Source: an uncultured Porticoccus sp.
GTDB taxonomy: Bacteria; Pseudomonadota; Gammaproteobacteria; Pseudomonadales; Porticoccaceae
Length of the DNA stretch: 64,000 bases
Reading direction: 5' to 3'
Assembly (NCBI GenBank): GCA_905181945.1
Contig: CAJIZZ010000009.1
Location: 1 to 64,000, forward strand
A model generated the notes under the pieces. It did not search any database and was not told the DNA's origin. It saw only the letters and a program-made list of their open reading frames with translations. Numbering within the stretch: the stretch's first letter is position 1; every line of letters begins with the position of its first letter. This document shows positions 6,278-14,700 of the stretch, piece after piece. The position numbers and the translations under genes are program-made.

Positions 6278-6418
6278 TAATCCTGCCTAATTTTTAAAAA
6301 TTTAATTGTACCGACAAATTGGGCGGTTAAAAACCAATCAAGCTACACTATTTATTTTTCATCTTAACATACAAGAAAATCATAGGAGCTTGCTCCGTCA
6401 CTCTCTATAATCATGCTT

Positions 6419-6898
6419 ATGGGAAAACAGCCAAAAAAAATACAGAAAAACCCGATCATTGCTCAAAATAAAAGAGCTCGCCACGACTATCACTTAGAAG
6501 AAAAATTTGAAGCTGGATTAGTCCTGCAGGGATGGGAAGTAAAAAGTTTGCGGGCTGGAAAAGGGCAGCTAGCGGATAGTTTTGTGTTGCTGCAAAATGG
6601 TGAGGCCTATCTCATGGGTACCCATATAGCGCCATTAAATACGGCTTCAACCCACTATGTCACCAATCCTGGTAGAAACAAAAAACTCTTATTGAACAAA
6701 AAAGAACTGTCTCGCTTATTTAATGCCGTTAACCAAAAAGGGCATACATGTGTTGCGTTATCTATATATTGGAAAGGGCACATTGTAAAATGTGAGATTG
6801 CTTTAGCAAAAGGCAAGCAAGCTCATGACAAGCGTGCCTCCGAAAAAGATCATGACTGGCAGCGCCAAAAACAACGAATCATGCGACACAACGTCTAG
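6419..6898 (+). CDS. smpB: SsrA-binding protein SmpB
   Basis: SmpB binds tmRNA and carries it to stalled ribosomes for trans-translation. The 159-residue product shows [20 protein letters not shown], then [24 protein letters not shown] and the family C-terminus KGKQAHDKR...[11 protein letters not shown]. The second in-frame ATG (6419) is chosen because MGKQPKK fits the family; an ATG two codons earlier (6413) is possible. Neither has a good ribosome binding site. It is divergent from the symporter gene, and ssrA follows 77 nt downstream, so the protein and its RNA partner are adjacent. Confidence 0.96.
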
Positions 6899-6975: not shown

Positions 6976-7351
6976 GGGGGCGTTCTGGATTCGACGCCGG
7001 TTACAAAACCCAAGGTGCATGCCGAGATGGTGACCAATCTCGTTAATCCAAAGTCGCAAACTATTAGTTGCCAACGACGACAACTACGCACTCGCCGCCT
7101 AAGAAACGGTAGGGAGCCATCTGACTGGAGCCGTGCTTGTGCGTCCAGAGTCTTTCGGGGCTATCAGGTGTCATACTCATAAGATCGTGATGAAACTTGT
7201 CTGGGGTAGACTCACTAAAAACTTACTGGAATCGTAATTTACGTACCCTGCCAGCCGGGTTGTGAATTATTAAATTAATGACTGAACTAAGCATGTAGAG
7301 CCTTCGGCAGAGGACTGACGGACGCGGGTTCAATTCCCGCCGCCTCCACCA
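6976..7351 (+). ncRNA. ssrA: Transfer-messenger RNA (tmRNA, SsrA)
   Basis: tmRNA rescues stalled ribosomes and tags the unfinished protein for proteolysis. The 5' end (GGGGGCG, 6976-6982) pairs over 7 bp with CGCCTCC (7341-7347), followed by an encoded ACCA. The tRNA-like T arm contains GGTTCAATTCCC (7327-7338), and the 5' part has the conserved TTCTGGATTCGACGCCGG. The tag frame starts at the GCC resume codon (7070) and reads ANDDNYALAA before a TAA at 7100-7102. This is the tag I recall for Pseudomonas. One piece, not permuted. No convincing rho-independent terminator follows. Confidence 0.97.
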
Positions 7352-7384: not shown

Positions 7385-7750
7385 TTATAGCAAAGATGGA
7401 ATGAGGTAAGCAAAAGTAAGCCCAATAATAAAAAATCCTACTGAAATAAAATAAATAATTAATGATAATTTTTTTGCCTTAGTGCACGCATCCGCTTTTT
7501 TTTCGTCTATAGGGCAAGGCAGATTTTTTGCGCGGTATTGGAGCACTCCAGAAATTACGAGCATCGTAAAAGCACCAATAAATATCTGAGCCTTATATAT
7601 TGAAATAACAACGAGTTGTGGAAATATTGAAAAAAGAGAACTTAGCGCTGCCCCCGCACCAATTGAAACTAGCAACGCAGGTAACGCACAGCAAATAATA
7701 GTTCCGCTACTAGCAAATAAAGATAGGTAGTCTGCTAGCTTATTTTTCAT
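7385..7750 (-). CDS. MerT-like heavy-metal transporter
   Basis: A 121-residue inner-membrane protein with three predicted membrane segments (about 9-35, 45-70 and 95-118). It has the layout of mercuric transporter MerT: a vicinal Cys pair in the first helix (C20-C21, IICCALP) and a second pair in the loop after helix 2 (C79 and C89). It starts 11 nt inside the MerP-like gene, so the two are translationally coupled. No merA reductase and no merR gene are nearby, and the operon is headed by a Cu(I)-type CsoR regulator. The metal moved may therefore be copper rather than mercury; that is inference. Confidence 0.75.
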   Translation of the reverse strand: MKNKLADYLSLFASSGTIICCALPALLVSIGAGAALSSLFSIFPQLVVISIYKAQIFIGAFTMLVISGVLQYRAKNLPCPIDEKKADACTKAKKLSLIIYFISVGFFIIGLTFAYLIPSLL

Positions 7751-8051
7751 TCTCGATCCTAATTTGACTCATAGTGCCAGGAAAAATTTCTATTTTTCGA
7801 ACATCGTAGCCTGCATCATTGATCACTTTCGTAATAAGTTTATTATCAAGCCCATCTTTCGATTCTATAGCGACAAAGTAATTTTCTAGACTAACAAAAA
7901 CATCATCAACGTTATCCGCGGCCCTGAAGCTCTTCTCTATACCTTGTGCGCAAAAAGCGCATACCATACCCAGTACTTCAATTTTTTGAGTCAATGCGTA
8001 GCTATGCACACTGAAAAGTATTATGGCTATTAGAAATATTGTTTTTTTCAT
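7740..8051 (-). CDS. MerP-like periplasmic heavy-metal-binding protein
   Basis: A 103-residue protein with a signal peptide (about residues 1-19, cut near SYA) and one HMA domain. The metal site is GMVCAFC (C31 and C34), the usual GMxCxxC loop. The later INDAGYDVRKI matches the last strand of HMA domains. It probably hands a soft metal ion to the MerT-like protein encoded immediately downstream, whose start it overlaps by 11 nt. It lies 11 nt after the exported unknown protein of the same operon. Confidence 0.82.
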   Translation of the reverse strand: MKKTIFLIAIILFSVHSYALTQKIEVLGMVCAFCAQGIEKSFRAADNVDDVFVSLENYFVAIESKDGLDNKLITKVINDAGYDVRKIEIFPGTMSQIRIENEK

Positions 8052-8062
8052 TAAATACTCTC

Positions 8063-8707
8063 CTAAAATGTATACATGAAATGAAAGGATGCATCTCCAT
8101 CCGTCGATACTCCAACATCCATAAATATGGATTTATTAATCAATCTAAGTGTAGGCGTATATTTAATTTTGTTATTTAGACTATTGATGTTTTTAGTTTT
8201 TAATATGAACCAGGGCTGAATTTCAGTGTACCCTGCTGCATAGAACGAAAAGCCGCCTTCAATTTTGGTTGCATCAAAGTTCTCATGACCAGCTCTTAAG
8301 ACTTGGTGAGAAACCATTCCGTACATTCTTTTGGTCTCATAATCAAACTGCAAGATTGGGCTTAAATAGACATGATGCTCTTTTATGTTATTTTTTTTTA
8401 TGCCTATAAAGCCTGCTCCAGCAAACAGCCATAAATTTGCCTGCGAATTAATAGTATTTTTTCTCATCAATTTTCTTAAATAAAATATTTCTCCTGACGT
8501 TGTGTCATAGCCGTTACCCTTAGCTCTAACAGTCTTTACGCCAAACGACTCCTTAATAGATGAAGCGTAGCTAGACTCAATACTAAAATAATTTTTGCTC
8601 GCTTGAGTCATGCTGGTTGTTGACCCTTTAAAGCTCATCGGTGCTGCATGAATCATAGATTGGTGCGCTGCTAACAGCAAAATAAATATGAAATACAACT
8701 TATTCAT
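8063..8707 (-). CDS. Exported protein of unknown function, possible outer-membrane beta-barrel
   Basis: I do not recognise a family. The 214-residue product starts with a signal peptide (MNKLYFIFILLLAAHQSMIHA). The mature part has many short alternating hydrophobic/polar strands rich in Tyr and Phe, and it ends in FHFMYTF with a C-terminal Phe, as outer-membrane barrels do. There are no cysteines in the mature part, so it is unlikely to bind metal through thiols. The ATG at 8707 overlaps the csoR stop by 8 nt (ATGAATAA), so it belongs to the csoR-merP-merT operon. It may be an outer-membrane channel for the same metal; this is a guess from context. Confidence 0.65.
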   Translation of the reverse strand: MNKLYFIFILLLAAHQSMIHAAPMSFKGSTTSMTQASKNYFSIESSYASSIKESFGVKTVRAKGNGYDTTSGEIFYLRKLMRKNTINSQANLWLFAGAGFIGIKKNNIKEHHVYLSPILQFDYETKRMYGMVSHQVLRAGHENFDATKIEGGFSFYAAGYTEIQPWFILKTKNINSLNNKIKYTPTLRLINKSIFMDVGVSTDGDASFHFMYTF

Positions 8708-9020
8708 GTTTTTCGTCACCAACATACAAAACATTTTTCCCCTTATACAAATTTGTTAGCTCTCGAATTTTTTCTTTCTGAGCATTCTTGTCATTTGACT
8801 GAAAGGCATCAATCACACAGGATTCAAGGTGCTTTTGAAGCATAATTATTTCGAGTGACTGGCAAGCTGAACTCACTGCCCTTAATTGCGTGATAATGTC
8901 AGGGCAATACCTGCCTTCTTCAATCATTTTTTTTATCCCATTCAGCTGACCTATAGCTTTATTCACTCTTGGAATATGTTTTCCATAATCTGGATATTTT
9001 GATTCGCAACAATCTGCCAT
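8700..9020 (-). CDS. CsoR/RcnR family metal-sensing transcriptional repressor
   Basis: An all-helical DUF156 repressor, 106 residues, which leaves DNA on binding metal. Cys39, His64 and Cys68 have exactly the C-x24-H-x3-C spacing of the Cu(I) site of CsoR (Cys36, His61, Cys65 in Mycobacterium), and Tyr38 matches the second-shell Tyr35. RcnR and FrmR types lack the last Cys. The pattern therefore points to Cu(I). The N-terminus also has a CC pair (4-5). It is first in the operon, after a GGGGAAA ribosome binding site and an ATACC/GGTAT palindrome, so autoregulation is likely. Confidence 0.88.
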   Translation of the reverse strand: MADCCESKYPDYGKHIPRVNKAIGQLNGIKKMIEEGRYCPDIITQLRAVSSACQSLEIIMLQKHLESCVIDAFQSNDKNAQKEKIRELTNLYKGKNVLYVGDEKHE

Positions 9021-10797: not shown

Positions 10798-11712
10798 ATG
10801 ATTCACATCACAGCCTTTTTAGTTCTTCTAACACTCATCATCACAGTCTTACCAGTAATGGCAAAAAGATCGTCCCAAGAAGGTCCGACTAGTGTTATTG
10901 TCGCGCCTGTCAAAAAAACTATGCTAACTGATCGAGTGGAAGCATTAGGTACAACCAGGTCAAATGAAATGACCTTAATTACAGCCAATACTGCCGAAAA
11001 AGTGACTGCGATACACTTTCAAGAGGGCCAGGTAGTTAAAACTGGCGATTTGCTAGTAACCCTGCGCCTAGATAAGCGAGCTATTTTAGCGCCCTTTGAT
11101 GGTGTTCTAGGCTTACGGGAGGTGAGCGTAGGTGCGCTAGTCCAACCGGGAGACCCCATCACAACAATTGATGATATCAGTATCATAAAAATTGACTTTG
11201 ATGTGCCATCGATTTTCTTGTCGTTACTACAAAAAGATATGCCGATTACTGGCAAAGTAGCGGCTTTCGGCAACAGAGAATTTGCTGGTAAAATAAAAAC
11301 GATAAATACACGAATCGACCCTATCACAAGAACGATCAAGGTCAGGGCGATCGCTTCCAATAAAGATCGAATTTTAAAGCCAGGCTTGCTAATGAAGGTT
11401 GTCATTATGGCGCATGAGCGTCAGGCGCTACTCATACCTGAAGAAGCCCTCATTAAGCGTGGCGAGAAAAATTTTGTATACATCGTAACCAAAGCTAACA
11501 GCCAGCTAAACGCGCAAGAGATTGGGGTTGAGATTGGATCTAGGATACCTGGTGAGATTGAAATTTTGTCTGGGGTAAAGCAGCACGATCAGGTGATCAC
11601 ACACGGATTGTTAAAAATTAAAGATGGCGCTGAAATTTCCATTCGCGCTATAGAAACAGAAAATACTCCATTAGCTGAACTGTTAATACAAAATGTTCAT
11701 GGTGCGCACTAA
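10798..11712 (+). CDS. RND efflux pump periplasmic adaptor (membrane fusion protein) lacking the alpha-hairpin
   Basis: A 304-residue adaptor for the RND pump encoded next. An N-terminal signal/anchor segment (about 1-22) is followed by both halves of the lipoyl domain, the beta-barrel (IKIDFDVPSIFLSLL, then RIDPITRTIKVRA) and the membrane-proximal domain (LLIPEEALIKRGEKNFVYIV). Normally 50-80 residues of coiled hairpin separate the lipoyl halves. Here GDLLVTLR runs within a few residues into KRAILAPFDGVLG, so the hairpin that contacts TolC is missing. There is no frameshift or gap. Borrelia BesA is a known adaptor without this hairpin. The stop abuts the next ATG. Confidence 0.9.
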   Translation: MIHITAFLVLLTLIITVLPVMAKRSSQEGPTSVIVAPVKKTMLTDRVEALGTTRSNEMTLITANTAEKVTAIHFQEGQVVKTGDLLVTLRLDKRAILAPFDGVLGLREVSVGALVQPGDPITTIDDISIIKIDFDVPSIFLSLLQKDMPITGKVAAFGNREFAGKIKTINTRIDPITRTIKVRAIASNKDRILKPGLLMKVVIMAHERQALLIPEEALIKRGEKNFVYIVTKANSQLNAQEIGVEIGSRIPGEIEILSGVKQHDQVITHGLLKIKDGAEISIRAIETENTPLAELLIQNVHGAH

Positions 11713-14700
11713 ATGTTCCTGTCGGATATTTCTGTTAAACGGCCAGTTTTTGCCTCAGTTATAGCCCTACTATTGGTTTCATTTGGCTTGGTTTCATTTT
11801 CTAATCTCTCCTTACGTGAATATCCCGATATTGATCCACCCGTAGTTTCTATCAGTACAACCTACCAAGGAGCCTCAGCTAATATTGTCGAAACTCGTAT
11901 CACTGAAGTAATTGAAGATAGAATTTCAGGAATTGAGGGTATAAAATTTATCTCATCTAATTCATCTGATGGTCGCTCTCGCATCAATATTGAATTTGAT
12001 ATTAATCGTGATATTGAAGCGGCGACCAACGATGTACGTGATCGTGTTTCTGGAGTAATTGACAATTTACCCGAGGAGGCGGAACCCCCTGATATTCAAA
12101 AAGCAGACTCAAGCGATGATGTTATCTTATGGCTCAATCTCGTAAGTGACAGACTCGACACTATGGAACTTACAGACTATGCCAAGCGATATCTGCAGGA
12201 TCGCTTTTCAGTGCTTCCTGGTGTAGCTCGAGTGCGTATTGGCGGTGGGCTAGAATACTCAATGCGAGTTTGGCTAGATCGCACCCAAATGGCAGCACGA
12301 AACATCACATTTACTGATGTAGAAAATGCGCTAATAAAAGAAAACATCGAACTGCCCGCCGGAAGCATTGAATCAATTAAGACACAATTTACCGCTCGCA
12401 TTGAACGCGCCTATCAATCCCCTGAAGATTTTAAAAAGCTAGTTGTTAGCCGAAATAACAACAATGATCTTGTAAGGCTGGGTGATATAGCTCGTATTGA
12501 AAAAAGTGCAATTGAAAATAGAACTTTTTTCCGCGGCAATGGAATACCAATGATTGGAATTGGGATTGTCAAGCAATCGAAAGCGAACATTATCACTATA
12601 GCTCAGGACGCGATTGATTTAGCAAAACAACTAGGGCCTGACCTGCCTCTTGGCATGGAAATCATCAACTCATACGACACTTCAGTCTTTATACGTAATG
12701 CGGTTACTGCTGTATATAAAACGTTATTTATCACTATCAGTTTGGTTATTTTTGTCATTTACATGTTTCTCGGAAATGCTCGTGCAATGCTTATTCCGGC
12801 AATTACGGTGCCTGTATCTTTAATTGCAACATTTACGGTTTTATATGCCTTCGGTTTTTCAATTAATCTGCTGACATTGCTAGCTATGGTGCTGGCAATT
12901 GGACTGGTCGTTGATGATGCTATTCTGGTATTAGAGAACGTCTCTCGACGCATTGAAGAAGGAGAGCCCCCTCTTACTGCAACCTATAGAGGAACTCGTC
13001 AGGTTGGGTTTGCTATTGTTGCCACCTCGCTAGTACTAATCGCAGTGTTTACGCCGATCACTTTTTTGAAAGGAGATCTAGGAAGACTATTCACTGAATT
13101 TGCCATCGCGATGTCTGTCGCAGTAGCATTTTCAACTGTGGTAGCCCTATCGCTTAGTCCAATGATGGCATCTAAAATCTTAAAAAAAACAGAGCCTAAC
13201 CAGCTGGCTAAGAAAATTGATAGCATCTTCGCAAAGGTCAAATCAGCATACTCATCGCTGTTAGAAAAATTATTAGGTTATCGGATGCTAATGATTGGTG
13301 TTTTTGCTGCTGTTGCGGCATTAGCCATTTTATTTATCAATATCCTTCCATCCGAATACGCACCCAAGGAGGATCGTGGGGCATTCTACCTCATAGTCAC
13401 CGGGCCAGAGGGTGCTAGCTTTCAATACACCAAAGAGTACATGGATGAGATTGAAAAACGCATGCAGCCCTATATTGATAGCGGCGAAATCAGCCGCTCT
13501 TTGGTTAGGGCGCCTCGACAGTTCGGCGCTCTCACGAGCTTTAATGACGGCATAGTGATTGCTGTGCTGAATGACTGGAGTAAGCGCCGTTCAGCTAAGA
13601 TTATCATGGGTGAAATTTCTAAAAATATGAGCGATCTTCCTGGTGTTCGCGCATTCCCTGTCATGCGTCAAGGGTTTGGCCGAGGAACCAAAAAACCTGT
13701 TCAGTTTGTTATTGGCGGTGGCACTTATGAGCAACTAGGAGAATGGCGCGATACTCTGATCAAAAAAATAAATCAAAATAATCCTGGATTAATCGATCTT
13801 GACAGCGACTATAAAGAAACGAAGCCGCAACTACGTATTGTTATCGAAAGAGATCGAGCGGATGACCTAGGAGTGAGCGCGCGCACTATTGGTCGCACGC
13901 TAGAGGCTATGCTGGGATCGCGTCGTGTCACCACCTATATTGATGATGGAGAAGAGTATGATGTGATTCTAGAAGGAGAGCGGTCCAAGCAAAATACTCC
14001 GACAGACTTACAAAATATTTATGTGCGATCTGACAGTACAGGGAGACTAATTCCGCTAGGTAACCTGATTACAATTGAGGAATACGCTGATGCTAGATCA
14101 CTAAATCGCTATAATCGTACGCGCGCTATTACAATTGAGGCCGGACTCAAAGAGGACTATTCGCTAGGAGAAGCTCTATCCTTTATGCGCCAATTAGTGC
14201 GTGAGCACTTACCTGAAACTGCTGTCATCGACTATAAGGGTACCTCGCTGGATTACCAGAAAAGTGGCTCATCGTTACTATTTGTTTTCGCCTTAGGTTT
14301 TGCTGTTGTGCTCTTAGTTTTAGCGGCTCAATTTGAGAGCTATATTCATGCTCTAGTGATTATTTTAACCGTTCCTCTCGCAATTTCTGGAGCGCTAGCG
14401 GGGCTATATTTCACGGGAAATTCTTTAAATGTTTATACGCAAATTGGGCTCATTATGCTGGTTGGCTTGGCAGCCAAGAATGGAATTTTGATTGTTGAAT
14501 TTGTTAACCAGCTACGTGATGAGGGAATGGAATTTTCTAAGGCCTTGATCAGAGCTGCAGAAACCCGTCTGCGTCCGATTGTCATGACATCAATCACAAC
14601 TATGGCGGGCTCTATTCCTCTAATTTTATCTTCCGGAGCAGGGGAAGAGACAAGAAAAGCTATTGGCATAGTGATTTTATTTGGAGTTCTGGCGGCAACA

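Follow-up and report, generated by a model that had tools for sequence, protein, structure and literature searches.

A hairpin-free RND periplasmic adaptor in an uncultured Porticoccus sp. and a further hairpin-free set in small-genome gammaproteobacteria

The alpha-helical hairpin of RND periplasmic adaptors is held to dock the adaptor to TolC and to unlock TolC. An adaptor gene followed by a permease gene in an uncultured Porticoccus sp. appeared to lack it. Is the hairpin truly absent, do relatives lack it as well, and how could such a pump be joined to the outer membrane? Below, the window denotes the whole stretch of DNA that was analysed, 64,000 nucleotides in length.

The adaptor gene and its predicted fold

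The adaptor ORF is open with its frame intact, and the permease gene begins at the base right after its stop codon, so that the pair is organised as an operon with an RND permease (Table 1). Promoter and terminator scans were not clearly richer than shuffles. Profile TIGR01730 matches the adaptor with 188 bits (cut-off 94.9), which identifies it as an RND periplasmic adaptor, and Pfam also places it among these. Its N-terminus is a signal or anchor sequence with no cysteine within residues 1-30. The PF00364 match (residues 67-124) bridges the join of the lipoyl halves. The protein is not a biotinyl/lipoyl carrier, in which a single lipoyl domain, with a modified lysine in its turn, is the whole protein, since barrel and membrane-proximal domains follow.

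Table 1. Features of the adaptor-permease pair, positions counted in the window
Feature	Position	Strand	Evidence
RND periplasmic adaptor without alpha-hairpin, 304 aa	10798..11712	+	ORF, TIGR01730, AlphaFold2 model
Lipoyl (barrel-sandwich) domain, first half, residues about 61-89	10978..11064	+	alignment; PF13533 68-89
Turn RLDK, four residues (90-93), replacing hairpin	11065..11076	+	alignment, linker lengths, AlphaFold2
Lipoyl domain, second half, residues about 94-126	11077..11175	+	PF00364, alignment, AlphaFold2
Adaptor segment 3' of lipoyl halves	11176..11655	+	Pfam, conserved-column comparison, AlphaFold2
RND (HAE1-type) permease, full length, 1036 aa	11713..14823	+	PF00873 964 bits, residues 4-1010
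Permease docking subdomain DN, residues 183-267, normal constraint	12259..12513	+	residual test
Permease docking subdomain DC, residues 706-801, normal constraint	13828..14115	+	residual test

In the alignment with orthologues, the join reads ...GDLLVTL up to the junction and RLDKRAILAPFDG... after it, and the same stretch in orthologues reads ...VLVEM-TSAEE...(coiled coil)...ATRS-RLADRLILAPFDG. Between fixed lipoyl positions, the linker counts 10 residues in the window adaptor, against 68-69 for the listed adaptors with a hairpin. The gap amounts to 59 residues, that is 177 nt, and is in frame. Hairpin length is near-constant among the listed rows of the ortholog group (56-57 on a scale on which the window adaptor scores -2). 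Because of this constancy, and because the gap coincides at either end with the lipoyl/hairpin boundary, it is more than a chance result.

The remaining turn, L-R-L-D-K-R-A (window 11047-11091), resembles the DKA turn of E2 lipoyl domains. This likeness is probably a coincidence, as lipoylation is unlikely for an exported protein.

The fold was predicted with AlphaFold2 from the window adaptor aligned with 15 relatives. In the resulting model (mean pLDDT 87) the longest helix has 6 residues, and the four-residue turn connects strands 85-89 and 94-97. When the same sequences were supplied with a hairpinned relative first, helices 112-140 and 146-171 (29 and 26 residues) were predicted; the setup thus shows a hairpin where one is present. 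The alpha-helical hairpin with tip motif that marks a canonical tip-to-tip adaptor is therefore missing from the window adaptor. The first-pass annotation had read the two lipoyl halves as joined by only a few residues, in an intact frame and beside a full-length pump gene. All of this holds, and the hairpin elsewhere in the protein that would have spoken against such a reading is not found in the model. The gene is thus confirmed as a genuine RND periplasmic adaptor without the TolC-docking hairpin.

To judge constraint, 25 hairpinned orthologues were used for a regression of adaptor identity, hairpin excluded, on the identity of the permease. The window adaptor has a mean residual of -0.30 sd (others range from -0.82 to +1.03) and keeps 39 of 42 conserved columns. 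The permease docking domain, with DN and DC boundaries carried over from AcrB with the help of sequence motifs, has a residual of -0.51 sd, within the range of the others. Since constraint is relaxed neither in the rest of the adaptor nor in the docking domain, decay of the pump is unlikely, although such tests give no date, and a very recent deletion or an assembly error would look alike. The earlier description of the locus as a designed form rather than decay is accordingly upheld as to constraint; that the form is settled does not follow from one genome of the species.

It is very improbable that the deletion is a recent loss-of-function allele, disabling a pump whose decay has yet to begin. 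Constraint cannot distinguish this case if the event is recent, and the genome (1.33 Mb) is smaller than most of the genus (1.2-2.7 Mb). Against it, one random deletion in three keeps the frame and few would have both ends at domain boundaries; the fold is also predicted to be intact. Hairpin loss through genome shrinkage alone was rejected, since other small genomes (for example G797, 1.0 Mb) keep the hairpin.

Hairpinned relatives and the hairpin-free family f188

Orthologues of the window adaptor (G004, G006, G471, G472, G421 and G038) occur in the same adaptor-permease gene pair. Their permeases are 60-66% identical to that of the window over the full length, and their adaptors, with the hairpin excised, about 40-52%. 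Unlike the window adaptor, all of them possess a hairpin, which is constant in length and in most carries an R-x3-L-type tip motif. The first-pass annotation had proposed a survey of adaptor lengths in relatives. Among the matches listed from 17 genus, 112 family and 392 order genomes, no other hairpin-free adaptor was found, and the complete adaptors at the loci examined contain the hairpin. The permease closest to the window's is that of G038. The adaptor of this genome gave a contiguous local match and was considered as hairpin-free, yet its frame, cut at the 5' end by the contig, holds a full hairpin; the family of G038, searched as well, was represented by one genome and added nothing.

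The genes that directly flank the window operon did not recur beside the orthologues examined. Elsewhere in the window, a small cluster of metal type lies at 7385-9020 on the minus strand, with a CsoR/RcnR-family repressor (PF02583), an unknown 223-aa protein, a secreted HMA-domain protein and a MerT-like small membrane protein. A tmRNA (6976-7351, tag ANDDNYALAA) is located just downstream of smpB (6413-6898).

At class level, 369 genomes were searched with a hairpin-less profile built from the two lipoyl halves. Among the matches listed, two were contiguous over the full span (ORFs of 305 and 308 aa), and both belong to one distant gammaproteobacterial family, f188. Three other contiguous-looking class matches (G797, G579 and G790) were rejected, hairpins being present. 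The class and order searches capped the candidates scored in each genome and listed the best matches, so further hairpin-free cases may exist.

Within f188, hairpin-free adaptors occur in 23 of 25 genomes (loci L194-L218 and L222-L233; genomes G626, G833 and G850-G871), which are 0.7-1.2 Mb in size. Their frames measure 302-311 aa, apart from two of 225 and 193 aa; one of these is clearly cut off by a contig end. Two loci were read through: in both, a 1008-aa permease follows the adaptor, and their GC content is 30-31%. A search with HlyD_3 found no second adaptor in f188 genomes; the sole extra match above cut-off, a weak one in G865, was rejected as the lipoyl domain of a 2-oxoacid dehydrogenase E2. 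A TolC-family protein is present in every f188 genome, one each and two in one genome. Taken together, the 23 of 25 genomes, the single type of adaptor detected and the TolC found throughout indicate that a hairpin-free adaptor can be fixed beside TolC.

The f188 adaptors resemble that of the window in the missing hairpin, the adaptor-permease operon, the length of about 304 aa and the HAE1-type permease. They differ in the linker (14 residues versus 10), and the permeases are 41-44% identical. A tree built from the N-terminal part of the permease shows f188 as one clade (100/100). The window permease groups with that of G038 (99/90), and these two are joined next by hairpinned members of the family of the window genome (99/90). 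Judging from this placement and from the differing linker lengths, hairpin losses in the window lineage and in f188 are best read as separate.

These surveys also bear on the chance that 177 nt present in the organism were lost in sequencing or assembly. Such an artefact would suit a singleton, seen in one genome of its species while other adaptors of the ortholog group are hairpinned. It is nevertheless improbable: the gap is in frame with both ends at a domain boundary, the window contains no ambiguous base N, the operon lies within a contig of 125 kb, and the hairpin-free state is fixed in f188.

TolC partners and the possible working of the pump

A search for a cognate TolC-like gene, also suggested by the first-pass annotation, yielded one TolC-family protein in the whole genome of the window. 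It is encoded outside the window, on contig C5, adjoining waaA and a NUDIX/phosphodiesterase/parE cluster; no outer-membrane factor was found in the neighbourhood of the window operon. Like E. coli TolC, this protein has both hairpin-docking tip motifs (FEVGLT... and AGTRN...), and it keeps Tyr and Arg at the positions of E. coli residues 362 and 367, so that its primary gate is not disrupted in the BesABC manner. As VGL and GTR are retained, the protein lacks the adaptation to a hairpin-free partner that f188 TolCs may have.

The latter, unlike the TolC of the window genome, lack the first tip motif and the gate arginine. VGL is absent from all 11 proteins in which the first tip could be read, and 12 of 12 examined have another residue (Tyr in 11, Asn in 1) where E. 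coli TolC has Arg367. In NCBIfam they match TIGR01844 (TolC family) best; the three proteins tested score below its cut-off. With an identity of only about 16-25% to the TolC of the window genome, these changes could also be due to lineage divergence of the f188 proteins, and hairpinned controls were few. BesC, the partner of hairpin-free BesA, has a disrupted gate according to reviews (PMC4446572, PMC8277102).

A second RND pair of the window genome resides on contig C17 (L038 14814-19002). Its adaptor (351 aa) retains the hairpin, and no outer-membrane factor was found beside it. With two adaptors in the genome, one of them hairpinned, a mixed ring can be imagined in which the hairpin-free adaptor alternates with the C17 adaptor as supplier of docking arms, in the manner of the two-adaptor pump TriABC. 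We consider this quite improbable, since an identity of only about 26% between the two permeases makes shared adaptors unlikely, and since f188 genomes showed no second adaptor.

The best explanation, to which we give roughly even chances, is a functional RND pair whose adaptor lost its hairpin by an in-frame deletion of 177 nt, independently of other cases, and which contacts TolC in the BesABC manner. The adaptor would still encircle the permease funnel as a ring. The permease docking domain and the lipoyl ring would touch the TolC tip directly and so pass substrate on to TolC. Armless contact of this kind was proposed for BesABC by Greene et al. (PMC3807786). The TolC may keep its hairpin-binding motifs because it would also serve the second RND pump with its hairpinned adaptor. 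Counted against this explanation are the single genome, the normal constraint, which is equally expected after a very recent deletion or an assembly error, the VGL and GTR motifs kept by the TolC of the genome, and the operon without outer-membrane factor, unlike besCAB.

That last point would also fit a pump which, the hairpin being really lost, works independently of TolC between inner membrane and periplasm, with an adaptor that only stabilises or activates the permease; so would a TolC that is encoded on another contig and whose motifs suit the hairpinned adaptor of the other pump. HAE1 pumps, however, take substrate mostly from the periplasm and the outer leaflet, so emptying it into the periplasm would be close to futile, and we regard this alternative as unlikely. 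Armless contact with TolC is favoured over it by the unrelaxed constraint on the permease docking domain and by the hairpin-free state fixed beside TolC in f188, where the adaptor is retained and every genome has a TolC.

Comparison with known systems

AcrA and MexA (AcrAB-TolC, MexAB-OprM) share the TIGR01730 adaptor fold with the window adaptor. In contrast to it, they possess the hairpin, on which their tip-to-tip docking depends. The hairpin loss of the window adaptor has arisen separately in a whole family of tiny-genome bacteria, and the textbook way of joining RND pumps is therefore probably not the only one. We suggest, with some reserve, that small-genome gammaproteobacteria have repeatedly, at least twice, arrived at a simplified tripartite pump by losing the hairpin, and that f188 TolCs are self-opening, in convergence with BesABC. 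If so, such a TolC needs no hairpin for unlocking, its primary-gate arginine being lost in f188. The window deletion, a minimal one in a gammaproteobacterial pump that is ordinary in other respects, and f188 together offer natural material for testing whether an RND permease and a lipoyl ring alone can couple to TolC.

In the papers searched, we found no description of hairpin-free adaptors in small-genome gammaproteobacteria, the f188 set included. Hairpin-free RND adaptors as such are already known from BesA, from other spirochetes and, rarely, from proteobacteria such as Legionella (Greene 2013, PMC3807786), BesA so far having been the odd exception that is hard for tip-to-tip models (PMC4446572).

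The precedent named in the first-pass annotation, BesA of Borrelia, is well chosen. It ranks first in a Foldseek search with the model of the window adaptor (E 4.8e-19), being its nearest solved structure, and phmmer also matches the two proteins (residues 29-282). BesA of the Borrelia burgdorferi BesABC pump (PDB 4KKS/4KKT/4KKU) likewise consists of lipoyl, barrel and membrane-proximal domains, with a short loop between the lipoyl halves in place of a hairpin, at about 23% identity. The loop of BesA is nine residues long, Cys26 is a site of lipidation, and the TolC homologue BesC is encoded in the same operon (PMC3807786). The window pair differs in its four-residue turn, in the missing N-terminal cysteine and in an operon without outer-membrane factor. 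The window adaptor is thus a new, independent hairpin-free member, with the shortest join among those seen here.
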